Assembly (NCBI RefSeq): GCF_002008315.2
Contig: NZ_MVDG02000001.1
Span: 4,340,001 to 4,404,000, forward strand
DNA: 64,000 nt
Reading direction: 5' to 3'
From: Arthrobacter sp. KBS0703
GTDB taxonomy: Bacteria > Actinomycetota > Actinomycetes > Actinomycetales > Micrococcaceae
The notes beneath the pieces were generated by a model. It was not told the origin of the DNA. It was given only the letters and a program-made list of their open reading frames with translations, and ran no database searches. The translations under genes were made by a program, and so were the position numbers. Shown here piece by piece: positions 1,674 to 55,060 of this stretch (position 1 is the first letter of the stretch; each line of letters starts with the position of its first letter).

Positions 1674-1711
1674 CTGTCTCTTATACACATCTAGATGTGT
1701 ATAAGAGACAG
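1674..1711. other. Nextera mosaic-end junction (adapter artefact)
   Basis: The 19-bp mosaic end CTGTCTCTTATACACATCT is followed directly by its reverse complement, forming a 38-bp palindrome. This equals the circularisation junction of Nextera mate-pair libraries. It lies just after the carbonic anhydrase domain and before unrelated sequence, so the two flanks may or may not be neighbours in the genome. Confidence 0.97.
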
Positions 1712-1892
1712 GTCGCGCGGCGGACGGCCCGCGGTATCTTGGCCGGGGCGGCGGGCTGCGTACTCCGGGAAATTTCCGGGTAGTTCCGGCCCGGAAAGAC
1801 GGGTAGCTGCCTCGCGTGACTTGAGCACGCGGCCGGCCGTTGAATGGTCCTGGCAGGCAACGATCCAGATCGGCGGCGGGGGGGGCAACACC

Positions 1893-2018
1893 ATGACCGG
1901 TTCAAGAGATCCGGCTGCGCCCGGCCAGCGGTTCACGGTGGCCGGTCCTGAAGCGGCCGGTCCTGCCGCGCCAGTTCCTGAAGCGTCCGGTCCTGCACCG
2001 TCCGGGAACGGGCCATGA
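1893..2018 (+). CDS. possible small Pro/Ala-rich protein coupled to the next gene
   Basis: This 41-codon frame begins with MTGSRDPAAPGQ after a G-rich stretch and ends in the TGA of an ATGA overlap with the next start at 2015, which would allow coupled translation. The second half (about 1930-2012) is made of short repeats of a GGTCCTGAAGC-like unit, giving an AGPEA/AGPAA pattern. I do not recognise a family. It could equally be non-coding leader, and 1712-1892 upstream holds nothing I can name. Confidence 0.3.
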   Translation: MTGSRDPAAPGQRFTVAGPEAAGPAAPVPEASGPAPSGNGP

Positions 2019-2464
2019 ACGCCGGGCTGGCATCGGTCGTGCAATTCGCGGGATCGCTGCCGGGTTCCATCCTGCTGACCCTGGGCCAAGCGCTCGTGGT
2101 CGTGTGCGCCTGCTTCGACATGGTCCGGGTGCTCTCCGTTCCCCGTTCACACCGCCGCTACCTGGCCAACACGGTGTTCAGGACCCTCGCACCGCCGTCG
2201 ATCCTGTTCACGGCCACCAACGTGCTGATCGCCGCGGCGCGCGGCGCCTGGCCCGACGTCACTGCCGGGATGTTCGTGCTGGTGGTCGTGACCTACCGCT
2301 GGCGCACCGACAATGACGAGGACAACTGGTGGAAGGGCAAGGGCAAGGCGCTGGGCCGGTGGATCCGGACGCGGGCCGCGCTCCCGCCCGTGATGTCGCC
2401 GGCCGCGGCCTACTCGCCGCCGTCAGTCGTTGAAGAGCCCCGCCAGGTCCTCGGCCGTCAGTGA
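2015..2464 (+). CDS. small multi-helix membrane protein, unknown function
   Basis: The 149-residue product has hydrophobic stretches near residues 10-35 and 55-95, then a charged and Pro-rich tail including a DNDEDNWWKGKGK segment. No family is recognised. The start gives a four-base overlap with the small frame before it. The last 42 bases overlap the 3' end of the opposite-strand helicase gene; given how often single bases are missing in this assembly, the tail may be read in a wrong frame and the true stop could lie slightly earlier. Confidence 0.6.
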   Translation: MNAGLASVVQFAGSLPGSILLTLGQALVVVCACFDMVRVLSVPRSHRRYLANTVFRTLAPPSILFTATNVLIAAARGAWPDVTAGMFVLVVVTYRWRTDNDEDNWWKGKGKALGRWIRTRAALPPVMSPAAAYSPPSVVEEPRQVLGRQ

Positions 2465-5400
2465 ACCGCCGGAGAGTGCATCGCCCTCCATGACGTCCGC
2501 GAAGAGCTGGGACTTCTTGGCCTTCAGGGCCATGACTTTTTCTTCGATGGTGTCCTTGGCGACCAGCCGGTAGACCATGACGTTCCGGGCCTGGCCGATC
2601 CTGTGCGTGCGGTCCACCGCCTGCGCCTCGGACGCCGGGTTCCACCACGGATCGAGCAGGAACACGTAGTCGGCCTCGGTCAGGTTCAGGCCGAAGCCGC
2701 CGGCCTTGAGGCTGATCAGGAACACCGGCGCCGCACCGTTCTTGAACTCGTTCACCACATCGGTGCGGTTCCGGGTGCTGCCGTCGAGGTAGCAGAACTC
2801 GATGTTCTCCTCCACGAGGCGCTCGCGGACCTTGCCCAGGAAGCCCGTGAACTGGCTGAAGATCAGCGCGCGGTGGCCCTCGGCCACCAGGTCTTCGAGC
2901 TGCTCGAACAGCACGTCCAGCTTGCTGGACCTGACCCCGCTCAGGGACTCGTCCACCAGCGAGGCGTCCAGGCTCAGCTGCCGGAGCAGGGTCAGCGACT
3001 GGAAGATGGTGAAGCGGTTCTTGTTGACGTCCTCGATCAGGCCCAGGATCTTCTGGCGCTCGCGCTGCAGGTGGGTCTGGTACACCTTCTGGTGCCGCGG
3101 GTTCAGCACCACTTCCAGGATCTGTTCCTGCTTGGGCGGCAGGTCATGGATGACCTGCTCCTTGGTGCGGCGCATCATGAGGGGACGGACCCGACGGCGG
3201 AGCTTGTCCAGCTGCCCCTTGTCACCGTTCTTCTCCACCGGCTTTTGGTAATACTCGGCGAACCGCTTGGGGCTCGCGAACAGGCCCGGGGCCACAATCG
3301 AGGTCAGCGCCCAGAATTCCATGAGGTTGTTTTCCAGCGGCGTTCCCGTGATGGCCAGCTTGAAGCCGGCCGGCAGCTTCCGGGCGCACTGGTAAGCCTT
3401 GGACTGGTGGTTCTTCACGAACTGGGCCTCGTCCAGGACCAGTCCGGCCCAGTGCCGTGAGGCGTAGGCGTCGTAGTCGATCCGGAACAGCGCGTACGAC
3501 GTGATGACCACGTCCGCGCCCGCCATCGCCTCGGCGGCGTCGGTCCCGCTTTTCGCAAACGTCTCGCCGATCGCACGCACCGTCAGTCCGGGCGCGAAGC
3601 GGGCGGCTTCCGCCTCCCAGTTGCCCACAACGCTCGTGGGGGCCACCACCAGGAAGGGAGTGCCGCCGTCGGGCGCTGCACCCCCGCCGGCGACGGACGG
3701 CGCCCCGTCAACCGGCGGAGTCCCGTCAACCGGAGGGTGCTCCTTTGCGGCGCACATCAGGGCCAGCGCCTGCACGGTCTTGCCCAGGCCCATGTCGTCC
3801 GCGAGCACGCCGCCGAGCCCGTGCCGGTACAGGAAGCTCAGCCAGTTGTAGCCCTCCAGCTGGTACGGCCGCAGTTCCGCGTTCAGGGTGGCCGGCAGCG
3901 GCAGGCCGTTCACGCCGCCTTCCAGCAGTCCGCCCACCGCCTCGCGCCACGCTGCGGCCTGCTCGTCCACTATCCCCAGCTGCGCCAGCTCGTCCCACAG
4001 GCCGGCCTGGAAGCGGCTGATCTGCAGCGGGGCGTCCTTGTTGTCCTGCAGCTCGCGGGCCTCGTCGATCAGGGCGCGCAGCTGGTGCAGTTCCGGCAGG
4101 TCCAGCGAGAAGTACGCGCCGCTGGGAAGCAGCATGCGCGTCTGGCCCGCTGCCAGGGCGGAGAACAGCGCCGCGAAGGACACCGGCTGGCCCTCGAGGG
4201 TGATCACGATGCCGAGGTCGAACCAGTCCCGCTGGTCGGTCGCCTTCGTCGAAATCGCCACCACCGGGGCCTCGTCGGCCTCGCGGTAGTCCGCGATGTC
4301 GCCGGAGGTGTCCACGTCGACGCCGGGGGTGTCCCGGAGGCGGGGGAGGACCTCCTCGGTGAACGCAAGGGTGTCCAGTCCGCTGAGTTCGGACGTGGCC
4401 GCGAGCCGCGGCGTGCCCCAGCCGCCGCTGGCCGATTCGCCGAGCTTCGGCACCACGTCCCACGGCTGGCCCACCGCCTCCAGGATCCGCGCCTCGGCGG
4501 GATCGTCGCGGTAGCCGTGATCGCCAGGGTGGCGCCACAGCGGCTGCGCGGTGACGAGGTTTCCAGATGTGTAATGCCATTCCCAGTGCAGCCGGACGCG
4601 GTGGTCCGCTCCGTAGTTGGCCAGCAGCGACAGCTTGGGCACGGCCAGGGTGGGCAGCTCCACCGATTCGTCGGCAGCAGTGACCCGGGCGGTCTGCTTG
4701 AGCTTGGGGTAGAAGCCGGTGAGGAAGCGGCCCTCGTCCCGCGCCGGGATATGCAGCGTGCTCCCCGCCGTCACGAACGTCAGGAGCTCCTCGCTGAGCC
4801 CGCTTTCCAGCGGGGCCAGCGTGATCACGGTGTCGGCGGCGACCCCCGGCAGCGCATCCCCGCCGGAGGTGAGGAAGATGCCGTGCGCCGGGCGTCCGAT
4901 GGTACCCACCGAGGCCGGATCCACTTCCGCCCCTCCAACGCTGATGGTGGGCGCGAGTTCCAGCCCGCCGCCGTCGGGCGCGGTGCTGCCGAAACGGCCC
5001 AGACTCAGGCCCACGGCGGCGGGATCGTCCGCGACCCGGACCGGCTCCTGCCCGCGGCTGTGGACCAAGGCGACGCCGATTTTCCTGGCCTCGGCCAGCA
5101 GGCTCCACAGGTTCTTGCCGGCGAACGTGTTCATGCCCAGCCAGAGCGCGGACGACAAGTGTGCCCTGTTCGCGGCGGCGGTGTGCGCGGCGAGGAAGGC
5201 CTGCATCCATTCCACATGGGCCTCGTTGCACTCACGGCGGAAATTCAGGTAGCTCAGGGTGTTCCAGGAGACGTCGCCGCGGATCCACTTGCCTTTGGCG
5301 CCCATGATCACGGGCCTGGCCTTGAGCTGGCGGACGCTGCGGAGGGGGTCCCTGCGCCCCGTGTAGGAGAAGTGCGGGGCGGGTTCCTCCACCTCGAACT

Positions 5401-5857: not shown

Positions 5858-6035
5858 GGTGCGCGCTACTTTCAGCAGGTCAAAAATCTGCAGGTTATCT
5901 GATCCATCTTAGTCAGCCGGCAGGGGCCCTGAAACTTCGCCTGACGTTCACCTGCCTCTCAACCCGCGGGCGGAGGCGGCGCGTACGTTGAAAGGGTCCT
6001 GAGCACCACCGGCTTTTCAGCAGTAAGGAATTCCC

Positions 6036-6887
6036 ATGACTTCCAGCGAATACCCAGTCGTTCTGACCGTCGACGGCGCCAACGCCGGCAACGAGGAGGT
6101 TGTTGACGCCAACGTGACCGTGGTGAACACCATGTACCAGGAGCTGCTCAACTCCGAGGAGATCGCCCCCAACGCCCTGCGCAGCTTCTTTGTCGACTTC
6201 TACCTCGCCCAGTCGCTCGGCGGCGGGTTTGCGCAGTACGTGTTCACCGCACCGGAGCGCGAGGAAGTGGACGCCTACATCCGCGAAGGCCTCGAAGGGA
6301 TGGGCGCCGCCGCCCACCTGGAGCTTTTCGAACGTACCGTGGAGGCCTTTGAGTCCCTGTCGGAGGAGGAAGAGGAGATCTACCTGGACGGCGAGTCCGA
6401 CGGCGACGCCGAGCTCCCGGAGGCAGTGCAGGCGATGGAAGACCTCGACGCCGAATTCGAGTCGCTGCTCGAAACCGAGGACATCATCGCGCTCAACGCG
6501 ACCTGGCTCCGGGCGCAGGAGGGCCTGCTGATCCTGAACGAGGACGAACTGACCGCCCACATCGCCAAGCGCGTCGCCCGGATCCCGGACCTCGAAGAAC
6601 GGCGCGCCGAAGCCGAGGAGGAGGCACTGGAGAACGCCCCGGAATTCGAGGTCATCATCCGTGAACTCTGCGACATCGCCGGCTATGAGCTGCAGAAAAT
6701 CACCATGGGCGACCCCAACTACGAGCACAACGGCGAGACGGTCCTGGCCTGGCACTTCAACACCGACCACGGCGACTTCATCATGCTCGAGGACGACGCC
6801 GAGGCGTTCATGCTGAACCCCCTGACCAAGGAAATCGTGGCCGCCGTGGAGTTCGAGGAGCTGGACGAGGACCTGGTGGACGCCTAG
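6036..6887 (+). CDS. acidic DMP19/DUF4375-like protein
   Basis: The 283-residue protein is strongly acidic, with runs of Glu and Asp near residues 110-120 and 190-200. Residues about 30-70 (NTMYQELLNSEEIAP, then SLGGGFAQYVF) resemble the DMP19/DUF4375 core, in which a helical region is followed by a GGF-type loop. The function of that family is not established. An AAGGA ribosome site lies upstream of the ATG. It is a single-gene unit, and its downstream terminator, if any, is lost in the adapter junction at 6909. Confidence 0.6.
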   Translation: MTSSEYPVVLTVDGANAGNEEVVDANVTVVNTMYQELLNSEEIAPNALRSFFVDFYLAQSLGGGFAQYVFTAPEREEVDAYIREGLEGMGAAAHLELFERTVEAFESLSEEEEEIYLDGESDGDAELPEAVQAMEDLDAEFESLLETEDIIALNATWLRAQEGLLILNEDELTAHIAKRVARIPDLEERRAEAEEEALENAPEFEVIIRELCDIAGYELQKITMGDPNYEHNGETVLAWHFNTDHGDFIMLEDDAEAFMLNPLTKEIVAAVEFEELDEDLVDA

Positions 6888-6908
6888 CGCCGGGCGGCAG
6901 GCCGGCGT

Positions 6909-6972
6909 CTGTCTCTTATACACATCTAGATGTGTATAAGAGACAGCCCGGCGGGATGTGTATAAGAGACAG
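6909..6972. other. double Nextera mosaic-end junction (adapter artefact)
   Basis: A full 38-bp head-to-head mosaic-end junction covers 6909-6946. After only eight bases a second partial mosaic end (GATGTGTATAAGAGACAG) covers 6955-6972. An eight-base genomic insert between two adapters cannot be a real locus and marks adapter concatenation at a contig end. The rest of 6973-7107 holds no gene I can see. Confidence 0.97.
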
Positions 6973-7125
6973 CCCCTGAGGGGGGGCCGCCGCGCGGGGT
7001 TAAAGGTTTCCGCAGGGTCGCCTCCCGATACTGGCATCCACATCGGGCCATGGACCTGATGTGCATCACCGACGGGCTGGGGTTCAGCCAGGTGAAGTCT
7101 GGGGCCTTTGGAGGGGAGCTTTTCC

Positions 7126-8874
7126 ATGAAATCTGCAAAAAATCGTCAGCGCTTGGCGGTCGCCATCACGGCCGGTGCGCTGGCCGCACTGGCCGTACCG
7201 ACCGTGGCTGTACCGGCGTTCGCCGTCGTCAACCCGGTGCCTGTCGCGCCGCACTCAATTATTGTTTTCCCGGTTCGGGACTTTGTCTCAGCAGACGGCT
7301 ACGCGGCCACTGACCGGCCCACCATCCAGGTGCTACGCGCCAACGCCGTCATCGGCACGGCATCCAACCTCACGCCGCAGGACGATCCCGGCACACCGGG
7401 CTTTGACGGGCTCGTGGAAGTGAACCACCCCGGCGGAGGATGCTGGGAAGGGGTCACCCCGGACATCCGCCCGGGTGACGTCGTGCGCGTTCTCACGGCG
7501 CCCGACGTCGGGGACCAGACTTCAACGGCCAACGTCACTGTCACGCAGCGGGCCACGAAGACCGCTGCCGGGACCGTAGTGATGAAGGGGACCGCAGTCG
7601 CCCCCGGCGGCGGGCAGATTCCCGTCGATCAGCTGGAGGCCAGGATCGTTGCGGGCAACCAATCGTTCGCCCTTAACGGGAAGCGGACACTCCGCGCCAG
7701 CTCTGCCGTCGGCGGCGACGGCACCCTCGCCTATGACGGTCCGGGCCTCACTTCCTGGACGGCAACGTGGACCGGGCTGACCGGCGTCGGCGCTGACGGT
7801 GTTTCCGACGCAGACAGGGCATCGAACCCGACAAACTCGCAAAGCCGAAGCCTGTGGCTCGGCGCCGATCCTGCGGCCGGCACCGAGATCACGATCTACG
7901 AAGACGGCGAGATCGCCGGCCCGTCGGCACCGTGCACCGCGCCGCTTGCCAAGGGTCCGTCCGTTCCTGACCTGACCGCCGTCTCGGACACGGGCAGTTC
8001 CACCACGGACAACGTCACGCGCAGCACCACGCCCACCTTCACCGGAGCCGCGGCGCTGCCTGATGCCACCACCGTGAACCTCTACATAGATGGCATCGCC
8101 AGCGGAAGCGCGGCAGTAGCCGCAAACGGCAGCTACTCGGTCACGTCCAACAGGGCCTTGGCCAACGGGCAGCACACTGTCACCGCCGGTGAAGTTGCGG
8201 CCGGTGGAACGGAGACCATGTCCGCGGCGGGCCTCACGGTCACGGTCGATACCGTGGCGCCGGTCCTCACCTCGAAGGTCCCCGCTGCCGGTTTCCAGGG
8301 AGCCAGCCAGTCCACCAACGTCCTGGCAACCTTCAACGAGCCGATCGCCGGCCTGAGCACGTCGTCGTACACGCTGAAGAACTCCGGCGGGGCAACCCTC
8401 GCGGCCGCCGTCAGCTGGAACGCGGCCACCCGGGTCGCCACACTGAATCCGGCTGCGAATTTCGCCGCCGATGCTCGGTACACGGCGAGCCTCACGGCCG
8501 GAATCAGGGATCTCGCCGGGAACACGCTGGTCCCGACCTCCTTTGCCTTCACCACGGGCCCGCGCCCGGTGGTAACCGCGAAGTCGCCGGCAGCCAACGC
8601 GACGGGGGTCAGCCGCACGGCCAACGTCACGGTGACCTTCAGTGAGAGTGTCACCGGTGTAGCCAACGGCACCTTCGCCCTCCGCAACGCCGCAACGGGG
8701 GCGCTTGTGAGCTACGCCGTCAGCTACAACGCCACCACCCGGGTGGCAACGCTGAACCCGAACGTGACATTGGCGGCCAACACGAGGTACACGGCCACGG
8801 TTTCCGCGAGCATCAAGGATGCGGGAGGCAACCCTCTCAGCGGACAGTCCTGGAGCTTCACCACAGGAGGGTAG
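7126..8874 (+). CDS. secreted Ig-like (SbsA/Big_5 type) surface protein
   Basis: The 582-residue product starts with a clear signal peptide: MKSAKNRQR, a hydrophobic core, and AFA at about residue 34. The N-terminal third is unfamiliar. An Ig-like module covers about residues 285-380, followed by two tandem SbsA-like Ig domains at about 385-480 and 485-580, each ending FAFTTG or WSFTTG. Such domains form stalks or adhesion modules on exported proteins. No catalytic domain or cell-wall sorting signal is visible, so it is probably released or loosely attached. ATG at 7126 is preferred over an upstream TTG because GGAGGGGAG sits just before it. A strong hairpin follows the stop. Confidence 0.75.
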   Translation: MKSAKNRQRLAVAITAGALAALAVPTVAVPAFAVVNPVPVAPHSIIVFPVRDFVSADGYAATDRPTIQVLRANAVIGTASNLTPQDDPGTPGFDGLVEVNHPGGGCWEGVTPDIRPGDVVRVLTAPDVGDQTSTANVTVTQRATKTAAGTVVMKGTAVAPGGGQIPVDQLEARIVAGNQSFALNGKRTLRASSAVGGDGTLAYDGPGLTSWTATWTGLTGVGADGVSDADRASNPTNSQSRSLWLGADPAAGTEITIYEDGEIAGPSAPCTAPLAKGPSVPDLTAVSDTGSSTTDNVTRSTTPTFTGAAALPDATTVNLYIDGIASGSAAVAANGSYSVTSNRALANGQHTVTAGEVAAGGTETMSAAGLTVTVDTVAPVLTSKVPAAGFQGASQSTNVLATFNEPIAGLSTSSYTLKNSGGATLAAAVSWNAATRVATLNPAANFAADARYTASLTAGIRDLAGNTLVPTSFAFTTGPRPVVTAKSPAANATGVSRTANVTVTFSESVTGVANGTFALRNAATGALVSYAVSYNATTRVATLNPNVTLAANTRYTATVSASIKDAGGNPLSGQSWSFTTGG

Positions 8875-8886
8875 TACATCGAGACA

Positions 8887-8925
8887 TCCGGCCCGGCGCC
8901 GCCCGAGAGGCAGCGCCGGGCCGGA
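8887..8925 (+). terminator. GC-rich hairpin after the Ig-like protein gene
   Basis: A 13-bp perfect stem (TCCGGCCCGGCGC with its complement at 8913-8925) encloses a 13-base loop, starting 12 bases after the stop. There is no U-tract, as is common for actinobacterial terminators. Confidence 0.65.
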
Positions 8926-8964
8926 CCCATGTCCGCGAGCCGTGGAGCTGACGATGTCCCCGCT

Positions 8965-8983
8965 GGTTGAGCCTGTCGAAACC
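8965..8983. repeat. GGTTGAGCCTGTCGAAACC short intergenic repeat
   Basis: This imperfect palindrome matches a motif that I recall as frequent between genes in Micrococcales. Only this copy was found in the window. Its role is unknown. Confidence 0.4.
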
Positions 8984-9011
8984 CGCGGACCGCATCTTCC
9001 CGAGGTGACGT

Positions 9012-9041
9012 TTGACACATGCAAAACGTTTTGTGTATGGT
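9012..9041 (+). promoter_or_regulatory. promoter of the LacI-GH32 sugar operon
   Basis: TTGACA at 9012-9017 and TATGGT at 9036-9041 are separated by 18 bases. Operator 1 lies inside the spacer, so repressor binding should block RNA polymerase. Confidence 0.7.
9022..9033. promoter_or_regulatory. LacI-type operator 1
   Basis: CAAAACGTTTTG is a perfect 12-bp palindrome with the central CG typical of LacI/GalR operators, placed between the -35 and -10 boxes. Confidence 0.75.
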
Positions 9042-9056
9042 ATTTCACATCAAGCT

Positions 9057-9068
9057 CAAAACGTTTTG
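9057..9068. promoter_or_regulatory. LacI-type operator 2
   Basis: The second exact copy of CAAAACGTTTTG is centred 35 bp from operator 1 and lies just before the ribosome site of the regulator gene, which suggests autoregulation by two bound dimers. Confidence 0.75.
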
Positions 9069-9080
9069 CAAAGGATGTCG

Positions 9081-10109: not shown

Positions 10110-10241
10110 ACCGGCAGCACCAACCGTTACACCACCCGGCGTCCGCACAAAAAAGAGACGCAGCCGTTGCACCGGCCGCGTCCCTTCCGGACCCCCGGGC
10201 CAATCATCCACGCGCAAAATCAGCAGAAAGACTGGACCATC

Positions 10242-11485
10242 ATGAACAAGCGATTCACACGGATCCTGGCCACCAGCATAGCCGCGGCGGCACTCGTGGG
10301 CAGCCTCGGCGCCTGCGGCAAGGGCAGCGCCTCCGCCACTTCCGACGGCGCCAGCGAGATCACCATGTGGACCCACAACGCGGGCAACCCGGAGGAACTC
10401 GCGGCCATCAAAGCCGTGGTGGATTCCTACAACAAGAGCGGCGCCGCCAAAGCGCAGATCAAGGTTCAGGCGTTCCCGCAGGAGTCCTACAACGACTCCG
10501 TGGTCTCCGCGGCGGCGGCCGGCAAGCTTCCGTGCATCGTGGACATCGACGGACCGAACGTGCCGAACTGGGCCTGGGCCAAGTACCTGACCCCGCTGAA
10601 GCTCTCGGCCGACCTGTCCAAGAACCTGCCCAGCACCGTGGCCAAGTGGGAAGGCGAAACGTACGCCGTGGGCTACTACGACGTCGCCCTCGCCATGATG
10701 GCCCGGGCCTCGGACCTGAAGGCGGCCGGCGTGCGTGTGGCCACCGTCGAGAAGCCGTGGACCAAGGAGGAGTTCCAGGATGCGCTGACCAAGCTCAAGG
10801 CGCTGGGCAAGTGGCAGTACCCTCTGGACATGGGCACCGCCGGTTCGGGGGAGTGGCTACCGTACGGTTACTCGCCGTTCCTGCAGTCCTTCGGCGCGGA
10901 CCTGATCAACCGCGACGGCTTCCAGTCGGCGGACGGAACGCTCAACGGCGACAAAGCCGTCGCGTGGGCCGAATGGTTCCGCGGCCTGGCGGACCAGGGC
11001 TTCATGGCCAAGAAGAGCGGCAAGGATTCCACCCAGGACTTCCTGAACAACAAGAGCGGCCTCCTGTACACCGGCTCGTGGGCGGCTGACAAGGCACGGA
11101 AGGCCCTCGGCAAGGACCTCGTGGTCATGCCCACCGTGGACCTCGGCAACGGCCCGAAGATCGGCGGCGCCTCCTGGCAGTGGGGCGTGACCAGCGGCTG
11201 CAAGAACGCCGACGCCGCCATGGACTACCTTTCCTACTCCCTGAAGCCGGAAAACCTGGCCGCCGTGGCAAAGGCCACCGGAACCATCCCGGCCACCGAC
11301 GCGGCCGCGGCGCTGCTCCCGGCGTTCGCCGAAGGCGGCGCCAACCGGATCTTCATGGAATTCTCCCGCAACTACGCGGTCATGCGGCCGGAAACGCCCG
11401 CCTACCCGTTCATCGCCACCGAGTACGGCAAGGCGGTCCAGGACATCCTGGCCGGTGCCGACCCCAAGACCGTGCTGGACAAGGC
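10242..11485 (+). CDS. sugar ABC transporter substrate-binding lipoprotein, 3' end lost in adapter
   Basis: This is a family 1 solute-binding protein for ABC sugar import. It has a lipoprotein signal (basic start MNKRFTR, hydrophobic core, lipobox LGAC with Cys25), then the conserved MWTHNAGNPEE start of the mature domain. It should capture an oligosaccharide and hand it to the two permeases that follow; no ATPase gene is present, so a shared MsiK-type ATPase is expected elsewhere. The reading frame runs into the adapter at 11486 after VLDKA, so the last few residues and the stop are missing from the assembly. Confidence 0.9.
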
Positions 11486-11523
11486 CTGTCTCTTATACAC
11501 ATCTAGATGTGTATAAGAGACAG
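11486..11523. other. Nextera mosaic-end junction (adapter artefact)
   Basis: A full 38-bp head-to-head mosaic end interrupts the end of the binding-protein gene. The permease genes of the same operon follow, so the flanks are probably true neighbours with a short stretch missing. Confidence 0.97.
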
Positions 11524-23384: not shown

Positions 23385-24669
23385 CTAGGAAGCGGCGGTT
23401 GCAGTGGATGCGGGGGCCTGGGCGGCCAGTGATGCCAGGCGCGAGATGGCGAGTTCCGCATAGAGAGCGGCCCCGTCAGCCAGCACGCCGTCGTCGAACG
23501 TTGCGTACGGTGAGTGGTTGAACGGCGAGGTGGCGTGGTCTGTGCCGGGAGGCACAGCGCTCAGGCCGATGAACGTGCCCGGCACCTCGGCGAGAACGCG
23601 GGAGAAGTCCTCCGAGCCGCCCAGCGGGGTGGCCCACCGCGACAGCCTCGATTCGCCGAAGAGCCTGGCGATGACGTTTTCCGCAGTGTGCGTCTCGGCC
23701 TCGTCCGTGATGGTGAGCGGATACTCCTGCTGGTAGTCCACGTGGACGTCGAGGCCGTGCGCGGCCGCGATTCCCTGGAGCAGCCGGGGCACGGAGTCCA
23801 TCATCCGCTGCCGGGATTCGTCGGAGAAGGTCCGGATGGTGGCCTCGATGCGGGCGGTCTCCGGGATGACGTTGCGCTTGGTGCCGGCCTGCAGCACGCC
23901 CACGGACAGGACCACGGGATCAAACATGTTGAACTGGCGGGTGACCATGACCTGCAGGGCGGTCACCATTTCCGCGGCCGCGGTGACGGGGTCCTTGGCC
24001 GCGTGCGGGGTGGAGCCGTGGCCGCCGGCGCCCAGCACCGTGACAACCAGGCCGTCCGAGGCGCTGAGCATGACGCCCGGCTTGGTGCAGAACGTGCCGT
24101 GCGGCTCAAGGGAGGAAAACACGTGCATGCCGTAGGCGGCGTCCACGCGCCGGCCGGAGGCATCCAGCACGCCTTCCCGGATCATGTAGCTGGCGCCGTC
24201 GAAGCCCTCCTCGCCCGGCTGGAACATCAGCACCTGTCTCTTATACACATCTAGATGTGTATAAGAGACAGCCGGTGCCGGCGTTCCGCGAGGAGCGTGG
24301 CCGCGCCGGCGAGCATGGACGTGTGGAGGTCGTGGCCGCACGCGTGCATGGCGCCGTCGACCGTGGAGGTGTAGTCCACCCCGGTCTTCTCCTGGACGGG
24401 CAGCCCGTCCATGTCGGCGCGGAGGAGCACCGCCGGGGCGCTGCCCGGCGTCACGTTCGCGGCGCCGCCCGTCGCCCCGCCGCGCAGGACGGCGGTGACC
24501 GACGTCGTGTCCTTGCCCAGCGTGATTTCGTACGGCAGGCCGTCCAGGGCCTGCAGGACCTTTCCTGGGTCCGCGGCAAGTGGAGGCCGATCTCCGGCTC
24601 CCGGTGCAGGTCGTGGCGGAGCCGGGCAATATCGCCCTGCATCTCCCGGGCGTCTGCGGCAATCGGCAC
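23385..24669 (-). CDS. M20 amidohydrolase (HipO/AmaA type), broken by adapter and one missing base
   Basis: This is a zinc amidohydrolase of the M20D group that cleaves N-acyl or peptide-like amides. ADMDGLP, the metal-binding HACGHDLHTSML and FQPGEEG with its catalytic Glu are visible. GTG at 24669 (VPIAADAREMQGD) follows GAGGAG. The frame is broken at 24561-24563, where TTT should be TTTT to give RTQEKVLQALDGLPYE, and again by the adapter at 24234-24271. Removing the 38-bp adapter rejoins the frame exactly between AERRHR and VLMFQPGEEG, although homologues suggest about five residues are lost. It lies upstream of the MHS transporter and opposite an Lrp-type regulator. Confidence 0.88.
24234..24271. 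other. Nextera mosaic-end junction inside the M20 gene (adapter artefact)
   Basis: A full 38-bp head-to-head mosaic end sits within a gene whose two halves are clearly the same protein, showing that the flanks are true neighbours. Confidence 0.98.
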
Positions 24670-24710
24670 GTGTACTCCTCGTCTGTGGTTCCGGCGTTGT
24701 GGGTCTATTC

Positions 24711-24727
24711 TGAAGTGGCCTACTTCA
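24711..24727. promoter_or_regulatory. palindromic operator between the M20 gene and the Lrp-type gene
   Basis: TGAAGT-GGCCT-ACTTCA is a 17-bp near-perfect palindrome in the 133-base divergent region. It is a likely site for the Lrp/AsnC-like protein encoded at 24803. Confidence 0.55.
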
Positions 24728-24802
24728 CAGCCCGCCAAAGTGCTGGAAAAATGCATATAGGGTGCTGAATGCGCAGGATTCGCGCAGAACGGAGGGATCG
24801 CC

Positions 24803-25840
24803 GTGGAACTCAGCGAGGAGGACCTTGCGCTCATCCATGCCCTGCAGATCGCACCGCGGGTGAGTTGGGCCGACGCCGCCGAGATCCTAGGCGTCCACGC
24901 CACCACGCTCGCGGCCCGGTGGGAGCGGCTGCGGGCGGCCGGCGCCTCCTGGATCACGGCGCACCTGATCGGTGACCCGAAACAGATGTGCCTCGCGTTC
25001 GTGGCCGTGGACTGCGAGATGAACCGCCGGGAGGACGTCACGGCCCGGCTCGCCGCGATGCCGGAGATCGTCACGGTGGAAGAGGCCGCAAGCAACCGGG
25101 ACCTCATGCTGACCGTCATCACGGGATCGCTGGAGGAGTTCAGCACCAACGTGGTCTCCCGGCTGAAGGACATTGACGGCCTGCTCAAATACCAGACGTC
25201 ACTGTGCACGAGGCTGCACGCCGGTGGTGATTCCTGGCGGCTGAACGTGCTGAGCCGTGTGCAGCAGGCATCCTTCAGGGCACTCGCGAAACCCGGGCCC
25301 GCGGAGCCCGAGCGTCCCGACGCCGTGCAGGCGCCGCTGCCCGCGAGCCACCTGGCCCTGCTGCCGTTCCTCGCCAAGGACGGGCGTGCGACTGCGGCCG
25401 ACATCGCTCGTGCGCTCGGCCGCAGCCCGGCAACGGTCCAGCGGCAGCTGAACCGCGTGCTGGCCAGCGGGATCCTGTCCATGCGGTGCGAGATTGCGCA
25501 AAGGTATTCGGCCTTTCCCGTGACGTGCCAGTGGTTCGTCAACGTCCCGGCCGGGCAGCACGAAGCCGCCGCGGCCGCCCTCCGGACCATCCGGAACGTG
25601 CGGCTGAGCGCCTCAACCACGGGGCCTACGAACTTCGTGATCATCATGTGGCTCCAGACCCTGGCCGACGTGATGGATGCCGAACTTGCCCTGCAGCAGA
25701 AGGTCCCCGGCATCGAACTGGTCGAAAGCGTCGTCATGCTGACAACCGTCAAGCGGGTGGGCTGGATCCTGAACCCGGACTCGACGGCGAGCGGCGCCGT
25801 CGTCGTTGCTGCCGGATCCGCCCAACTGGGTAGCAGCTGA
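24803..25840 (+). CDS. Lrp/AsnC regulator with two tandem modules
   Basis: The 345-residue protein contains two AsnC-like units: a helix-turn-helix at about residues 5-45 (IHALQIAPRVSWADAAEILGV) with a ligand domain to about 160, and a second one at about 180-220 (LLPFLAKDGRATAADIARALGRS) with its own ligand domain to about 330. Usual Lrp proteins are about 150 residues. It probably senses an amino acid or acyl amino acid and controls the divergent amidohydrolase and transporter genes. GTG at 24803 follows GGAGGG. Confidence 0.85.
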   Translation: MELSEEDLALIHALQIAPRVSWADAAEILGVHATTLAARWERLRAAGASWITAHLIGDPKQMCLAFVAVDCEMNRREDVTARLAAMPEIVTVEEAASNRDLMLTVITGSLEEFSTNVVSRLKDIDGLLKYQTSLCTRLHAGGDSWRLNVLSRVQQASFRALAKPGPAEPERPDAVQAPLPASHLALLPFLAKDGRATAADIARALGRSPATVQRQLNRVLASGILSMRCEIAQRYSAFPVTCQWFVNVPAGQHEAAAAALRTIRNVRLSASTTGPTNFVIIMWLQTLADVMDAELALQQKVPGIELVESVVMLTTVKRVGWILNPDSTASGAVVVAAGSAQLGSS

Positions 25841-25886
25841 CGCGCTTCTCAGCGCCGGGTACCGCGTGTGCTGCTACCTACTTGGG
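25821..25886. repeat. 17-bp inverted repeat, family CCCAACTAGGTAGCAGC, copy 1
   Basis: CCCAACTGGGTAGCAGC at 25821-25837 and GCTGCTACCTACTTGGG at 25870-25886 pair at 15 of 17 positions. The left arm is the last codons of the Lrp-type gene and directly precedes its stop. A second copy with the same arms lies at 29777-29842. Confidence 0.75.
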
Positions 25887-25920
25887 AGGGGGCGTGGGGC
25901 GTGGGGCGGCCGCGGCGGGG

Positions 25921-25958
25921 CTGTCTCTTATACACATCTAGATGTGTATAAGAGACAG
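25921..25958. other. Nextera mosaic-end junction (adapter artefact)
   Basis: A full 38-bp head-to-head mosaic end cuts the 3' end of the soxR gene. The G-rich sequence just left of it (25887-25920) carries no gene. Confidence 0.97.
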
Positions 25959-26420
25959 GCCGGGGGCGGGTTCCCAGCGGCGCGGACCGGAACCGCCGGT
26001 GCCGAGTTCATCGGCCGGATTCTGCAGCCGGCAGGCCTTGAGGCTGAGGCAGCCGCAGCCGATGCACCCGTCCAGGTCCTGCCGCAGGTGATGCAGGGCC
26101 TCGATGCGGGCGTCCAGTTCCGAGCGCCACAGCCGCGAGAGCCTGGACCAGTCGCGCTTGGTGGGAGTGCGGCCCTCCGGCAGCGAATCCAATGCCGTGC
26201 GGATGTCCTTGAGCGGAATTCCCACGCGCTGCGAGACGCGGATGAACGCCACCCGGCGCAGCATGTCCCGGCCGTAGCGGCGCTGGTTGCCCGGGGTACG
26301 TTCCGAGCTGATGAGCCCGTTGCGTTCGTAGAAATGAAGGGCCGACGGCGCCACGCCGCTCCGCGCTGACAGCTCGCCGATGGTCAGGGCCGGGTGCGTT
26401 GCGCCCGCCTCGTGTGGCAT
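25959..26420 (-). CDS. soxR: redox-sensing MerR-family regulator SoxR, 3' end lost
   Basis: SoxR binds a [2Fe-2S] cluster and activates target promoters when the cluster is oxidised. The MerR helix-turn-helix covers residues 12-35 (LTIGELSARSGVAPSALHFYE) and the cluster ligands are C119, C122, C124 and C130 in the spacing CxxCxCx5C. After WEPAPG the frame enters the adapter at 25958, so only the last few residues are missing. It is divergent from an MFS gene that has a SoxR box in its promoter; in actinobacteria SoxR usually controls drug efflux and oxidases and not SoxS. Confidence 0.93.
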
Positions 26421-43408: not shown

Positions 43409-43759
43409 ATGGCAAACGACCAGCTCAGCATGATCTTCGCTGCCCTGGCGGACCCCACGCGGCGCGCCATCCTGGCGCGCCTGGCCGAGGGGGAGGCCAC
43501 GGTCAACGAACTCGCGGAGCCGTTTGAGATCAGCCTCCCGGCCGTCTCCCGCCACCTGAAGGTATTGGAGGCAGCCGGGCTGATCTCGCGCAGCCGCAAC
43601 GCGCAATGGCGCTCCAGCCGCCTCGAGGCCGCGCCGCTCGGCGCTGCCACGCAGTGGATGGAGACGTACCGCCGCTTCTGGGACATGAGCTTCGACAAGC
43701 TCGATGCCCACCTGAAGAGAATCCAGACCACGGAAAGGGAGGAAGACCAAAATGTCTGA
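43409..43759 (+). CDS. ArsR-family regulator
   Basis: The 116-residue winged-helix protein begins LSMIFAALADPTRRAILARLAEGEATVNELAEPFEISLPAVSRHLKVLE, the standard ArsR fold. It lacks the Cys metal box, like other ArsR proteins paired with SRPBCC partners. It probably represses this operon. Its stop overlaps the start of the next SRPBCC gene by eight bases. Confidence 0.9.
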   Translation: MANDQLSMIFAALADPTRRAILARLAEGEATVNELAEPFEISLPAVSRHLKVLEAAGLISRSRNAQWRSSRLEAAPLGAATQWMETYRRFWDMSFDKLDAHLKRIQTTEREEDQNV

Positions 43760-44245
43760 GCAACTGACCCCAATGCCATCCACGGCGCCGGACGAGTTGA
43801 TGCTTGTCATCACCCGCCACTTCGAGGCGCCCATTCAAACCGTGTGGTCGGCCCTGACGGATCTCAACCAGGCGCCGGCATGGTGGGGGCCGCACGGGTT
43901 CCACGTCCCGCGCGAGACCATCGAGGCCGACTTCGAAGTCGGCGGACGCTACCGTGCCTGCATGGTCCAGGAGGAGACCGGCCAGCGGCTTTGGTGGAGC
44001 GGCATCCACACACGCATCGAACCGCCCACCACCTTCGAATACACCTACGCCTGGGACAACGAAGACGGCACGCGGGGCTACGAGACTGAAGTGGCCATCA
44101 AGCTGGAGGAGGAGGCCGGCGGCACCCGGATGACCTTCACCCCTGTCTCTTATACACATCTAGATGTGTATAAGAGACAGGCCACGGCGGCGGCTGGGGC
44201 GAGGCCTTTGACCGGCTGGCAGCCCACCTGAGGTCCGCCGCATAG
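43752..44245 (+). CDS. SRPBCC (AHSA1-like) protein split by an adapter
   Basis: The first part reads LMLVITRHFEAPIQTVWSAL and APAWWGPHGFHVP, a typical AHSA1/activator-of-Hsp90-like domain, up to RMTFT at 44142. After the 38-bp adapter (44143-44180) the frame resumes as HGGGWGEAFDRLAAHLRSAA and ends at 44245. Excising the adapter joins the two parts in frame, though a few codons may be missing. Genes of this ArsR-coupled type are often co-induced with their repressor. Confidence 0.88.
44143..44180. other. Nextera mosaic-end junction inside an SRPBCC gene (adapter artefact)
   Basis: A full 38-bp head-to-head mosaic end; both flanks code for the same protein. Confidence 0.98.
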
Positions 44246-44272: not shown

Positions 44273-45163
44273 TCACTGGCCGGCTGACTCGAGTTCGCCC
44301 CGGAGGTTCCGCCGCGCCGCTTCCAGCCACAACTCGCGGGCACGGCGGCTGTGGAACAGCGGGTCGAGTTCCAGCAGCCCGCGCACGACGGCGGCCCGGC
44401 CGCCGCGAAGTCGGCGTCGCCTTTGTATAAGAGACAGCGCGTAGTCTTCGCGGACGGCGGCCACGTACCTGGCGTAGGGCTCCGGTTCGCCGCCGAGAAC
44501 CGACAGGTCCGCGTCGCAGAGGAGGGCGCCGTCGTCGTCCCCTGCCGGAGGCCGGTGGTCAGACGTCAGGCGGACCAGCCGTGCCACCTCCGCAACGTCC
44601 CCGGCGGGGAGTCCGGCCTCGGTGAGCCTGAGCTCGGCGAGGCGGGCCGACTCCTCCTCGTCCAGGCCGGCGGCGCCGCGGTAGACGGCGTCGTGGAACC
44701 AGGCCGCGAGAACCACGGTGCGCGGGGGTTCTGCGGGTTCGGTGAGCAGGTCCAGCGCCTCGAGCACCGCCAGCAGGTGCGTGCAGCCGTGATACCGGCG
44801 GTGGCTCTCGCTCCAGCGGTCAAGAAGGTCCAGGAACAGGGCATCGTGGCCGGCCATCACCGTGTTCCAGCGGTTGAGCAACGGGGTCTTCAGCGATGTG
44901 TTGCGCTCGCGGGCGGGGATCCTGAGTCCGCTGGCGATCAGCTTCCGGACCAGGATCCGGGCCTCCACGGGAATGGCGCCCGCCGCTACGAGCGCATCGT
45001 AGCGGCGCTCGGGCACATCGTAGTGGTCGCCGTCGAACGCCCGCTCCGGGATCTCAGCCGCGGCGGCAAACGCGTGCAGTTCTGCCAGTGAGGCGTCCGA
45101 AATCAGGTGCGAAAAGTGTGTTCCGTGCGCAGGCCAGAGAGGCGGATCCAGGTAAACGGCCAT
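44273..45163 (-). CDS. DUF4031-HD phosphohydrolase fusion, damaged by adapter fragment
   Basis: Residues 1-90 are a DUF4031 domain (MAVYLDPPLWPAHGTHFSHL, then AFDGDHYDVPERRYDALVAAGA and KLIASGLRIPARERN). Residues about 105-285 are a predicted metal-dependent HD hydrolase with HRRYHGCTHLLAVLEAL, AAWFHDAVYRG and CDADLSVLGG. A 14-base mosaic-end piece at 44424-44437 has been read as the nonsense LSLIQ. Just after it GDADFAAGRAAV can be recovered by adding one G to a GG run. The native sequence was probably YA, a few residues, then GDADFAAGRAAVVRG. The substrate is unknown. Confidence 0.85.
   Translation of the reverse strand: MAVYLDPPLWPAHGTHFSHLISDASLAELHAFAAAAEIPERAFDGDHYDVPERRYDALVAAGAIPVEARILVRKLIASGLRIPARERNTSLKTPLLNRWNTVMAGHDALFLDLLDRWSESHRRYHGCTHLLAVLEALDLLTEPAEPPRTVVLAAWFHDAVYRGAAGLDEEESARLAELRLTEAGLPAGDVAEVARLVRLTSDHRPPAGDDDGALLCDADLSVLGGEPEPYARYVAAVREDYALSLIQRRRRLRGGRAAVVRGLLELDPLFHSRRARELWLEAARRNLRGELESAGQ
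44424..44437. other. partial mosaic-end fragment inside the HD gene (adapter artefact)
   Basis: TGTATAAGAGACAG is the last 14 bases of the mosaic end. It breaks the expected HD-domain sequence. Confidence 0.9.
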
Positions 45164-45225: not shown

Positions 45226-45248
45226 TTCTGGAATTCGCGCGGGACGTA

Positions 45249-46085: not shown

Positions 46086-46256
46086 TTACAGCAGCTGGAT
46101 GAGCTTGGCCAGGAGCGAGACGCAGATGAGGGAAAGGAGGGCCGCAGCGGTGTAAACCGCGGCTTTCGGCAGCGGGGCGTCCGGCCGAACTATGCGCAAG
46201 GCATCACACGTAACCAATGCCACGACGGTGGCAAATCCTGTCAGGAAGATGATCAT
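46086..46256 (-). CDS. 56-residue two-helix membrane protein
   Basis: MIIFLTGFATVVALVTCDALR forms one helix and AAVYTAAALLSLICVSLLAKLIQLL a second. The ATG lies within the stop region of the preceding gene (ATGA overlap), and it is the last gene of the polysaccharide operon. No family recognised. Confidence 0.65.
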   Translation of the reverse strand: MIIFLTGFATVVALVTCDALRIVRPDAPLPKAAVYTAAALLSLICVSLLAKLIQLL

Positions 46257-50710: not shown

Positions 50711-50711
50711 C

Positions 50712-51812
50712 TCATTCCTCCAGCGTCGAACTGATCAGGTTGGCCACGTAATCCGAGGTCCGGTCCGCGGACCACGAGGCGGGGATCCGCAGGAGGGAGC
50801 ACGGGACCCCATCCAGGGCCCTCCGCACCACAGCCGCCTTCTGGCTGAAGAATTCCTCGAGGGGGACGAGCCCGGTGGCACCCAGGGCCTCGATGAGCCT
50901 GCGCGAGACCATGGGCAGTTCCGAATGGAAGTTCCCCACGATGCGGGAGGTCATCCATTCAGGGCTGCGCATCTCGTGCCGTGCGTCGGAGCCGTCGTAC
51001 CGTTCCAGGAAGATCGCCAGCCGGGTCAGAGCCCCGGATGAGATGCGGTCCGTTCCGAAGACTTCTTCCGGATGGACCATCCGGTGTTCCGGCGACCAGC
51101 GGCGGGTGAACGCCGCGGTCTTGGGATACCTGACGATCACCGGATGGACTGCCGTCGCCAGCTTGGCCACGGAATTCGTGAGCCAGCCCGGCGCCAGGGG
51201 CTTCCGGGCGCCGCTGAAGACGTCCGGGTAGATGGTCCGGTGATGGGGCTTGAGGAACATCGGTTTCGCGTAGCCCATGAGCCTGCCGTCAGCGTCGAGG
51301 AAGGCCCAGTCATCGGCCATGAACCGCACGCCCGGAATCGCAGTGAGCTTGGCGACCGTGCTGGTCTTGCCGACTCCGCCCCACGCGGGCAGCAGGACGC
51401 CGGAACCGCGGTAGTCCACCACCGCGGCATGGACCATGGCTGCGTTTTCCCTGATGCAGAGCCGGTCAAGCAGCGGGATGACGGCCGTCAGCAGTTCGCC
51501 GCTGCCTTGGATGGCGTAACCGTCCCGGGTCTCGATGATGTGCACGCGGTCGGCGGGTAGGTAGAGGGAGTCCGCCGTGAAACGGTATGCGTCCTCGGCG
51601 TGTGACTGGTTTGCCACCGCCGTCGTTTCTCTGCTGATGTGCAGCCGCAGCGGTGCGCTGGATCCGCCCAGGAACGGAGCGAGCATATCCCGCAGCTGCG
51701 ATTCGCCGGGCGTGCCGGGGGCCACATCGATGCCCACGAGGCCGTGGACGTCGAAGCTGGCACCCGTTGAAGGGACGGACTCCTTCATCACGTCTTTTTC
51801 GGACTGGCTCAT
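50712..51812 (-). CDS. HPr-kinase-like P-loop protein in the polysaccharide operon
   Basis: The 366-residue protein has AMVHAAVVDYRGSGVLLPA leading into Walker A GGVGKTS (residues 145-151) and then ADDWAFLDADG (166-176), the arrangement of the HprK C-terminal kinase. The N-terminal HprK domain is missing and about 110 different residues take its place. There is no HPr gene nearby. Similar proteins are reported in exopolysaccharide and lasso peptide clusters, with phosphorylation of a sugar carrier or peptide as the suggested role. Substrate here is unknown. Confidence 0.75.
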   Translation of the reverse strand: MSQSEKDVMKESVPSTGASFDVHGLVGIDVAPGTPGESQLRDMLAPFLGGSSAPLRLHISRETTAVANQSHAEDAYRFTADSLYLPADRVHIIETRDGYAIQGSGELLTAVIPLLDRLCIRENAAMVHAAVVDYRGSGVLLPAWGGVGKTSTVAKLTAIPGVRFMADDWAFLDADGRLMGYAKPMFLKPHHRTIYPDVFSGARKPLAPGWLTNSVAKLATAVHPVIVRYPKTAAFTRRWSPEHRMVHPEEVFGTDRISSGALTRLAIFLERYDGSDARHEMRSPEWMTSRIVGNFHSELPMVSRRLIEALGATGLVPLEEFFSQKAAVVRRALDGVPCSLLRIPASWSADRTSDYVANLISSTLEE

Positions 51813-51873
51813 GACCGGCGCAATCCGGCTGTTCCGGCGTTGTGGGTGGGGATGGGGTTCAGATAAGTGTGCA

Positions 51874-52881
51874 TCAGTTGATTTCCCTCCAGCTGGCGTG
51901 TGGCGCGTGTGGTCCGGCTGCCGGGCTTGCCGGCTCGGTCGGAAGGCTGCGTCCCCGCAGGTATCCGAACGTTGTCACTGCGAGTACCGCGATGACGGTC
52001 AGGGCCCTGCTGAAACCGGCGGGATCCTTCCCCCGGAGCTGGTCCAGGATGCCCGAGGCCACTGCGCGCGGCAACATCCTGCGGACATACCGGCGTTCGG
52101 CTCCGAGCGCCCTCTTATGCCCCACGATCTTGCTGACCTGGGCCTTCGACATGCCTTCGGACCAGGAGCGGCGCAACATGTAGCTCAGCGTGCCCCGCTG
52201 GACAGGAACGAAGTGGCGCACCAGGGCCGCAGGTTCGTACACCACGCGGCCGCCGGGCGAACCGATGACCGCCCTGATGCAGATCTCCGTCTCCTCGCAG
52301 CCGAGCGGCAGGGAATTCTGGCGGCCGAGTGAGGTGTTGAATCCGCCGACGACGTCCAGGACCTCGGAGCGGAAGGACATGTTGGCGCCGATGACGTTGC
52401 GAACCTCTGCCGCGACCTTGGGCATGCCGCGGTACGAGCAGCCGACGATCCAGTCGAGCTCTTCGGCGAAGTGCGCGGGGCGTTGCGTTTCCCACATCGG
52501 CACAACGCGTCCGCCGACGGCCAGGACATCGTGGTCGTCATACAGTGCGGTCAGCCGTTCCAGCCAGTCCGGTGCGGCCTCGGCGTCGTCGTCGAGGAAG
52601 GCTACGATGCCTGCCGTGGCGGCGGCCGCTCCGGTATTGCGGGCGCCGGACAGGCCCTTGGGGCCGGTATTTTCCAGGATCACCACATCGGAAACCGTGA
52701 AGATGAGCCTCTTGTAGAGGTCCATGTTGTAGTCGACCACGACGATCGTTTGCTGGGGCGGCACCGTTTGGGCGCGGACGGATTCGACGGCGGTCATCAG
52801 CATGTCCCAGCGGTCTTCCGTGTAGGAGCAGATCACCACGGAAACGGCAGGCAGTCCCTCGGAGTGATACATGTCATTCAC
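51874..52881 (-). CDS. family 2 glycosyltransferase (DDD type)
   Basis: The 335-residue GT-A protein has VSVVICSYTEDRWDMLMTAVESV, KGLSGARNTGAAAAT, the nucleotide-sugar and metal site VAFLDDDAEAAPDWL near residue 95, and ETEICIRA near 190. The C-terminal ALTVIAVLAVTTFGYLRG is a possible membrane anchor. GTG at 52881 lies eight bases inside the preceding gene; ATG at 52872 is an alternative. It is the second gene of the operon and probably adds a sugar to the lipid-linked repeat. Confidence 0.88.
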   Translation of the reverse strand: MNDMYHSEGLPAVSVVICSYTEDRWDMLMTAVESVRAQTVPPQQTIVVVDYNMDLYKRLIFTVSDVVILENTGPKGLSGARNTGAAAATAGIVAFLDDDAEAAPDWLERLTALYDDHDVLAVGGRVVPMWETQRPAHFAEELDWIVGCSYRGMPKVAAEVRNVIGANMSFRSEVLDVVGGFNTSLGRQNSLPLGCEETEICIRAVIGSPGGRVVYEPAALVRHFVPVQRGTLSYMLRRSWSEGMSKAQVSKIVGHKRALGAERRYVRRMLPRAVASGILDQLRGKDPAGFSRALTVIAVLAVTTFGYLRGRSLPTEPASPAAGPHAPHASWREIN

Positions 52882-53737
52882 CCGCCATGAGTCCCAGGAC
52901 CGTCTGGGGATCGGTCGGGACGTGCGGAAGGGAGATGTTGGGGTACTTGTATTTCACGCGCCGCAGGGCTTCTGCACGGGCGCCGGCCGTGGGCGCGTCC
53001 CACCCGATGCATTCGCGGGCCAGGGTCCGCAGCACCCGCCACCCGTCGCGGAACGTATGGAGGTTCGAGTTGCCGGAGATCCTTGTGAGTTCGTTGCTCG
53101 GAACCTCGGCAATCCGAAGCCCCGCCCGGGAGGCCCGGACGATCAGCTCCGTCTCGATTTCAAAGCCGTCCGATTCCAGCTCCAGGATCTCGAGGCATTC
53201 GCGGCGCATTGCAATGTAGCCATAGCACAGGTCCGAGTAGTTGCTGTGGAGCACGAGGTTGGCCAGCCCGGTCAGTGCCCTGTTGCCGGCGCTGCGCAGC
53301 AGGGTGATGTCGTCCGAGCCTCCGCCCGTGACGTAGCGCGAGCCTTTGACGAAGTCGAACTCGTGCTGGAGCGGCGAGACAAACCAGCCGATCTCCTGGG
53401 GGTCCATGCTCCCGTCAGCGTCGAGCATGACGATGATGTCACCGGAAGCGGCTGCGAATCCGGCCCGGACAGCCACGCCCTTGCCGGCGTGGGGCTCCGA
53501 AACGACGACCACGTCGAGGCGGAGGGCGCGGGCAACGTCGACGGTGCTGTCAAGGGAACGCCCGTCAACAATGACTACTTCGTCCACATATGAGGGCATG
53601 CGGCGAAGGACCCAAGGGAGGTTCATGGCTTCGTTCAGGGTGGGGATCACCACGCTGACGGAGGCCACAGGGGGCGGCACCGAATCCGGTGCGCGCAGAT
53701 TAGAAACAAGTATAGGGATGGTCACTAGCCTCACCAC
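52874..53737 (-). CDS. family 2 glycosyltransferase (DPM/DPG synthase type)
   Basis: The 287-residue GT2 has ASVSVVIPTLNEAMNLPWVLRRM, VVIVDGRSLDSTVDVA, IVMLDADGSMDPQEI (DxD at about residue 108) and GSRYVTGGGSDD, matching dolichyl-phosphate-type sugar transferases; it may load a sugar on a polyprenyl carrier. It is the first gene of the seven-gene leftward operon. The start is a GTG at 53737; a GTG four codons later is possible. Confidence 0.88.
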   Translation of the reverse strand: MVRLVTIPILVSNLRAPDSVPPPVASVSVVIPTLNEAMNLPWVLRRMPSYVDEVVIVDGRSLDSTVDVARALRLDVVVVSEPHAGKGVAVRAGFAAASGDIIVMLDADGSMDPQEIGWFVSPLQHEFDFVKGSRYVTGGGSDDITLLRSAGNRALTGLANLVLHSNYSDLCYGYIAMRRECLEILELESDGFEIETELIVRASRAGLRIAEVPSNELTRISGNSNLHTFRDGWRVLRTLARECIGWDAPTAGARAEALRRVKYKYPNISLPHVPTDPQTVLGLMAGE

Positions 53738-53755
53738 TCATGGAGTTGTTTGCTT

Positions 53756-53828
53756 TTGCCACCACAGCAGCCCTCCCGGCTATCAACCCGGAGGTAGACC
53801 AAAGCGCTCGCTGCTGCGGTAGTGGCAA
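53756..53828. promoter_or_regulatory. imperfect long inverted repeat upstream of the polysaccharide operon
   Basis: TTGCCAC...AGCAGC (53756-53771) pairs with GCTGCT...GTGGCAA (53810-53828) with an internal mismatch loop. It lies in the leader of the leftward operon, 19 bases before its first codon, and may be a leader hairpin or operator. The promoter itself is not obvious. Confidence 0.5.
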
Positions 53829-53927
53829 CTTGCTTGCACTCCCCCTCGTACATGTTCGATTCAGCAACTTGTAAAAAGCTTGGGGTTCCTTGAAGGCGCC
53901 CCAGTTTTGGGGGTCGACAGAACCTTG

Positions 53928-53951
53928 GTGACAGGTAGTCTCTGGTGTCAC
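53928..53951. promoter_or_regulatory. GTGACA-N12-TGTCAC palindrome upstream of the GH16 lipoprotein gene
   Basis: Six-base arms lie 10 bases before the ATG at 53961, a position suited to repression of the rightward gene. A GTGAC/GTCAC repeat is also found upstream of the protease gene at 56364. Confidence 0.4.
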
Positions 53952-53960
53952 ACTGTCCCC

Positions 53961-55060
53961 ATGGGTTTCTCTGAGCGCGGGAGCCGTCCCGACATTCCCC
54001 GCCGCCGCCCGGGCCTCCGGCATATGGCAGTGCTCGCCACGGTGGCGATGCTGGCCGCCTGCGGGCCTGTCGCCAAGGAAGCGCAGAGGCTGCCGCTCGG
54101 AGAGCTGCCGCCCGTGGACCCGCCCACCACGACGGCCCCTTCCTCTGCCCCTGTCTCTTATACACATCTAGATGTGTATAAGAGACAGCCTTCTGCCAAC
54201 CCGCTCCGCGCCCCCCGCGGCCCCAGCGGAACCGGCCGCCAGCGCGGCGCCTCCCGCCGCCGCTCCTGCCGCCCCGCCCTGTCTCTTATACACATCTCAC
54301 TGTGCCCCCGATCAATCCGCTCACGGCCAAGCTGCCGGTGGGCGACCTGCCCGGATGGAAACAGGTCTTCCGGGAGGATTTCAACGCCGGCGATGTTCCC
54401 ATCGGTGCTTTTCCCGGCCCGGCGTACGAGGCCAATTGGAGCGCGGGGTACAAGGACGGGATTCCGGACACGGCCGGTCAAACGGGGAAGAACTCCCGCT
54501 ATTACCCGACCAAAGTGCTCAGCGTCAAAAACGGAATGCTGGACTGGTTCCTCCATACGGAGAAGGGCATCTCCATGGGCGCCGCGCCCACGCCCAAGAT
54601 TCCGAACAACAGCTCCAATCCGCACCGTGCCAACAGCCTGCTCTACGGCAGGATCTCAGTCCGGTTCAAGGGGGATGCCCTTCCGGGTTTCAAAACGGCG
54701 TGGCTGTTGTGGCCGGACAGCGGCGTGTGGCCGAGGGACGGGGAGATCGACTACCCCGAAGGTGACCTCGCCACATCTTTCTACGGAGCCGTGCACCACC
54801 GCAGCAACAACCCGCATGAGTCCGACCTGATCAGGTCCTACGCCCTGTTCACCACGTGGCACGTCGCCACCATGGAGTGGAGCCCCGGGAAGGTCGAATT
54901 CTTCCTGGACGGTGTTTCGCTGGGAGCCGGAACCAGCAAGGTTCCGAACACGCCCATGCACTACATCCTGCAGACCGAATCGTGCCTGCCGGTCTGCCCG
55001 GCGCCGACGACGACCGGGCACGTCTACCTCGACTGGATCGCCATCTGGACGAAGGGCTGA
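53961..55060 (+). CDS. GH16-like lipoprotein, split by two adapter copies
   Basis: The lipoprotein signal has lipobox MLAAC near residue 37, followed by a Pro/Ala/Thr-rich linker, then a ConA-like glycoside hydrolase domain of family 16 type (from VGDLPGWKQVFREDFN). The catalytic stretch reads GEIDYPEGD, matching ExDxxE with nucleophile and acid/base Glu. Adapters at 54151-54188 and 54279-54297 split the linker. Removing the second one joins AAPAAPP to TVPPINPL in frame; at the first, some bases are lost. It faces the polysaccharide operon and may trim or bind its product at the cell surface. Confidence 0.83.
54151..54188. other. Nextera mosaic-end junction inside the GH16 lipoprotein gene (adapter artefact)
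   Basis: A full 38-bp head-to-head mosaic end. The 90-base piece between it and the next adapter still codes for the Pro/Ala-rich linker. Confidence 0.98.
54279..54297. other. single mosaic end inside the GH16 lipoprotein gene (adapter artefact)
   Basis: One 19-bp mosaic end CTGTCTCTTATACACATCT without its partner. Its removal restores the reading frame. Confidence 0.97.

Follow-up and report, generated by a model that had tools for sequence, protein, structure and literature searches.

What does it mean that one 38-bp palindrome recurs, letter for letter, at seven places in a stretch of 64 kb (hereafter the window, the whole stretch of DNA analysed)? The element consists of CTGTCTCTTATACACATCT followed by AGATGTGTATAAGAGACAG, two 19-nt halves that abut with 0 nt between them, and is identical to its own reverse complement. 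The first-pass annotation had read it as a mark of untrimmed Nextera mate-pair reads and had placed exact copies at 1674, 6909, 11486, 24234, 25921, 44143, and 54151 and partial copies at 6955, 44424, and 54279. Each exact copy was found precisely at its position, and the partial copies were likewise present: a half matching at 18 of 19 letters at 6954–6972 (exact from 6955), a mosaic-end fragment of 14 nt at 44424–44437, and a complete half (19/19) at 54279–54297. A scan of the window at up to three mismatches yielded no full 38-bp copy beyond the seven exact ones, and the 38-mer occurred 0 times in each of 100 dinucleotide shuffles of the window. The sites are as follows.

1674..1711, no strand: exact copy of the 38-bp adapter junction, in which a false ATG start lies at 1690 (minus strand); poor alignments gave −12 and −105
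6909..6972, no strand: composite of 64 bp (exact junction 6909–6946, 7 bp, 18/19 half 6954–6972); ~56 other bases in one relative
11486..11523, no strand: 38-bp adapter junction; a solute-binding-protein ORF, 10167–11516 (PF13416), terminates within it
24234..24271, no strand: 38-bp adapter junction inside ORF 23385–24662 (minus strand); 15 bp instead in 5/5 relatives
25921..25958, no strand: 38-bp adapter junction; yields the peptide VSYTHLDVYKRQ in ORF 25806–26369 (plus strand)
44143..44180, no strand: 38-bp adapter junction; 33 bp instead in 4/5 relatives; false ATG start at 44159 (minus strand)
44424..44437, minus strand: 14-nt mosaic-end piece within ORF 44273–45163 (minus strand); 5 bp instead in 5/5 relatives
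54151..54188, no strand: 38-bp adapter junction in which two false ATG starts lie, at 54167 (minus strand) and 54172 (plus strand)
54279..54297, plus strand: 19-nt half junction, mosaic end only; 19/19 match

Each half is the synthetic Tn5 mosaic end, an engineered form of the Tn5 end, and we take the exact 38-mer to be the sequence of the Illumina Nextera mate-pair kit. In the literature covered, the same 38 letters are printed in a single paper, PMC7357533, as a biotin-labelled ring adapter that circularises fragments of ~4 kb; in the relevant passages of that paper, the fragments are sheared and the kit is unnamed. PMC4676930 describes the trimming of such adapters ahead of assembly. Neither the four junction peptide strings tried (see below) nor a paper on adapter pollution of databases was found in the literature covered, from which subscription journals were largely absent.

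The source genome (4.86 Mb, 37 contigs), which is rated 99.99% complete and has at least 251 adapter junctions, contains 251 exact copies of the 38-mer. When exact 38-mer matches were sought in 100 further genomes, sampled evenly across the genus, none had a copy, leaving the source genome as the only carrier among 101. The 464 kb of sequence in which the window lies hold 38 exact copies and no N. Outside these copies there are 13 exact halves, of which, judged by the sequence around them, 6 belong to five junctions altered at one end and 7 stand alone; the inner 32-letter core occurs there in 43 junctions, of which 38 are intact at both ends and 5 are altered at one. At C1:4153381–4153438, outside the window, lies a 58-bp tandem junction made of a half, a damaged half, and a half in the opposite sense. 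The one-end-altered junctions, this tandem form included, look as would be expected of adapter remains.

Presence of the element is independent of the organism, the identical 38-mer being found in at least 120 stretches of a genome collection that come, by record title, from at least 19 other organisms; the listed carriers include Scytonema, Enterococcus, Collinsella, Ideonella, Bacillus, Rhizobium, and Streptomyces. Viral contigs carry it as well, in seven stretches (L161–L167), and in L161, L163, L166, and L167 it lies within ~10–50 bases of one end of the stretch. Exact copies were also seen in five enterobacterial plasmid records (NZ_CP032357.1, NZ_MT039157.1, NZ_KY978628.1, NZ_MF589339.1, and NZ_MF918372.1). 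E. coli genomes and phage collections gave no 38-mer match at megablast sensitivity.

We then compared the junctions with the corresponding DNA of relatives. For 12 sites (9 within the window, 3 beyond it), the two flanks were fused directly, leaving out the adapter, and aligned to relatives; each single-site search compared the five best relatives by locus rather than all matching ones. At 8 of the 12 sites a length could be measured, and there the adapter stood in place of 5 to ~56 bp kept by the relatives, between flanks that were otherwise collinear. Outside the window, all five relatives had 13 extra bases at C1:4055283 and 35 at C1:4055461, and at C1:4170664 they had 5 (2/5) or 7 (3/5). 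Within it, the extra bases numbered 15 at 24234 and 5 at 44424 in all five relatives, 33 at 44143 in four of five (the fifth did not align), and 56 at the 6909–6972 composite, for which a single relative was available. At 11486, the three closest relatives had 51, 50, and 48 extra bases and three more distant ones 9, 36, and 12. The sites at 1674, 25921, 54151, and 54279 gave low alignment scores or scattered values for the replaced length.

In a separate flank comparison, the 38 copies of the 464 kb were set against 480 kb of one relative. Both flanks were collinear at 6 of the 38 sites, two of them tightly, with 53 bp replaced at C1:4219260 and, again, 51 bp at 11486; four loosely aligned sites (162, −353, −105, and 30) were set aside, the value of 30 being site 6909 counted without its half copy. 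Among 300 random control places only 59–60 were collinear, indicating that most of the 464 kb is not syntenic with the compared part of the relative; the median estimate in this control was 0 for uncut sequence and 38 when 38 bp were cut, with 51 and 52 places tight enough. When the joined-flank method was applied to 25 shifted places as a control, 96 of the 110 alignments gave a value of 0, including one at a locus that was too short for alignment. The remaining 14 comprised five near 4055283, eight at two places left of 44143 that lie outside or at the edge of the homology, and one at the same short locus. The control place near 4055283 is situated between genes, in a variable stretch between two conserved blocks, and gave −13 to −34 in five relatives. 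Natural length differences between relatives thus do occur, though at that control place they are negative and unequal.

Taken together, these alignments show that, wherever it could be measured, the adapter replaces a short piece of real sequence in otherwise collinear DNA. Each measured junction marks a small hidden deletion, and therefore excising the adapter would not restore the true sequence. This refines the earlier reading: the element is more than left-over adapter, having taken the place of 5–56 bp at GC-rich spots. It is identical over 38 nt to the Nextera mate-pair junction adapter, and half and worn forms are also present here; unlike that adapter in reads, it sits in an assembled contig and stands for real bases.

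Three other origins were weighed. One is that Tn5-type mosaic ends were truly inserted into the chromosome, either through transposition or in a mini-transposon mutagenesis, which would agree with the half-site being the synthetic Tn5 mosaic end. However, there is no transposon here: the inverted ends enclose no payload, their halves abut directly, and 251 copies lie in one genome. Tn5 transposition leaves a 9-bp target duplication, which was seen at 0 of 38 copies (and, exactly, at 1 of 146 junctions with enough flank in other genomes), and at the 8 of 12 measured sites the target is not intact, with 5–56 bp missing rather than duplicated. We accord this origin a negligible probability. Hardly any likelihood attaches either to a family of palindromic repeats native to the host, similar to REP or BIME elements. 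The copies are indeed dispersed and palindromic, but no exact copy exists in the 100 other genus genomes, no diverged full copy was detected in the window at up to three mismatches, and 38 of 43 core copies are whole at both ends. In addition, the half-site has only 7 G or C among its 19 letters inside a stretch of 67% GC, and the identical sequence appears in cyanobacterial, Enterococcus, Bacillus, Streptomyces, and other records.

The junctions might instead be assembled true chimeric mate-pair reads that link places thousands of bases apart; two ends that lie far apart are indeed brought together in every mate-pair read, as set out in PMC4074385 (Skewer). Against this, at the eight measured sites the flanks are collinear with those of relatives and merely 5–56 bp apart, making chimeric joins very improbable as the general explanation, and the sites at 1674, 25921, 54151, and 54279 could still be of this kind. 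In our view the 38-bp repeats are almost certainly untrimmed Nextera-type mate-pair circularisation adapters that were merged into the assembly and replaced real DNA. The untrimmed-junction reading of the first-pass annotation is thus borne out by the printed adapter, by 251 copies against 0 of 100 genus genomes, by the assemblies of other groups, by the lack of 9-bp duplications (0/38), and by the replaced bases at 8 of 12 sites. The feature is a laboratory assembly artefact and not biology, as that annotation had correctly recognised.

The surroundings of the junctions suggest how adapters may have come to replace genomic bases. Within 25 bp on each side of the 38 copies, GC content was 0.767 compared to 0.666 elsewhere (0 of 5000 resamples were as high), and this excess faded with distance, to 0.703 within 250 bp. 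Spacings below 300 bp separated 4 of 37 neighbouring pairs, where 0.9 were expected. By eye, the right flank of 11486 contains a GC-rich inverted repeat. GC-rich flanks and clustering fit short coverage gaps at hard-to-sequence places that were closed by merging contig ends. Reads of a mate-pair library of this type run from the genome into the junction (mosaic end plus reverse-complement mosaic end), and the adapters were almost certainly left untrimmed before assembly. Where a small gap in coverage fell in very GC-rich DNA, the contigs to its left and right would both have stopped within junction sequence. In assembly or scaffolding, the two ends may then have been merged through the palindromic adapter that they shared, which would thereby have been substituted for 5 to ~56 bp of real DNA. 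We infer the low coverage and the end-merging step; the remainder of this scheme rests on the identity of the adapter, its genome-wide presence, its absence in relatives, the replacement, the GC-rich flanks, and the lack of N.

The artefact has consequences for gene models. Translation of the junction gives LSLIHI-stop-MCIRD in frame 1, in which the stop is followed directly by ATG, CLLYTSRCV-stop-ET in frame 2, and VSYTHLDVYKRQ in frame 3; the three tell-tale peptides named by the first-pass annotation were therefore correct. Of 134 listed ORFs in the window that reach 150 aa or more, five start inside a full junction (1121–1690, minus; 24257–24760, plus; 43530–44159, minus; 53700–54167, minus; 54172–54765, plus). 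A Pfam scan of ten ORFs returned no family for five of them (1121–1690, 5913–7127, 24451–25752, 43530–44159, and 53880–54830). In ORF 23385–24662 (minus strand), the match to an M20 peptidase begins just past junction 24234, at profile position 62, and ORF 44273–45163 (minus strand) has DUF4031 near its start. Adapter junctions thus interrupt genes, create false ATG starts (MCIRD...), and add junk peptide to proteins with unrelated domains. Such peptides can lead homology searches astray and distort counts of pseudogenes, and the relevance of the junctions is one of quality control only; adapter excision without new reads would keep the deletions.

We lean towards the view that in public untrimmed mate-pair assemblies generally the 38-mer is the sign of a small deletion concealed at a GC-rich or hairpin-forming gap, not of a mere insertion, a generalisation from a deletion pattern measured in the source genome only. 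If true, databases could be searched for wrongly broken genes with the palindrome and its peptides (VSYTHLDVYKRQ, and MCIRD at false starts) as the key. Pollution of protein databases by these peptides, likewise anticipated from the sequence, was indeed observed. A query of 43 residues that spans the junction peptide in ORF 25806–26369, run against database proteins within set length limits, matched 76 of 314 candidates at E <= 10 (P0003–P0078), of which 75 contained VSYTHLDVYKRQ exactly and 10 had MCIRD at their start. The junction peptide has therefore spread in the protein database well beyond the source genome. The contigs that encode these proteins measure 506 to 5631 bases, and the Pfam domains of the proteins are unrelated, ABC transporter and transpeptidase domains being examples.
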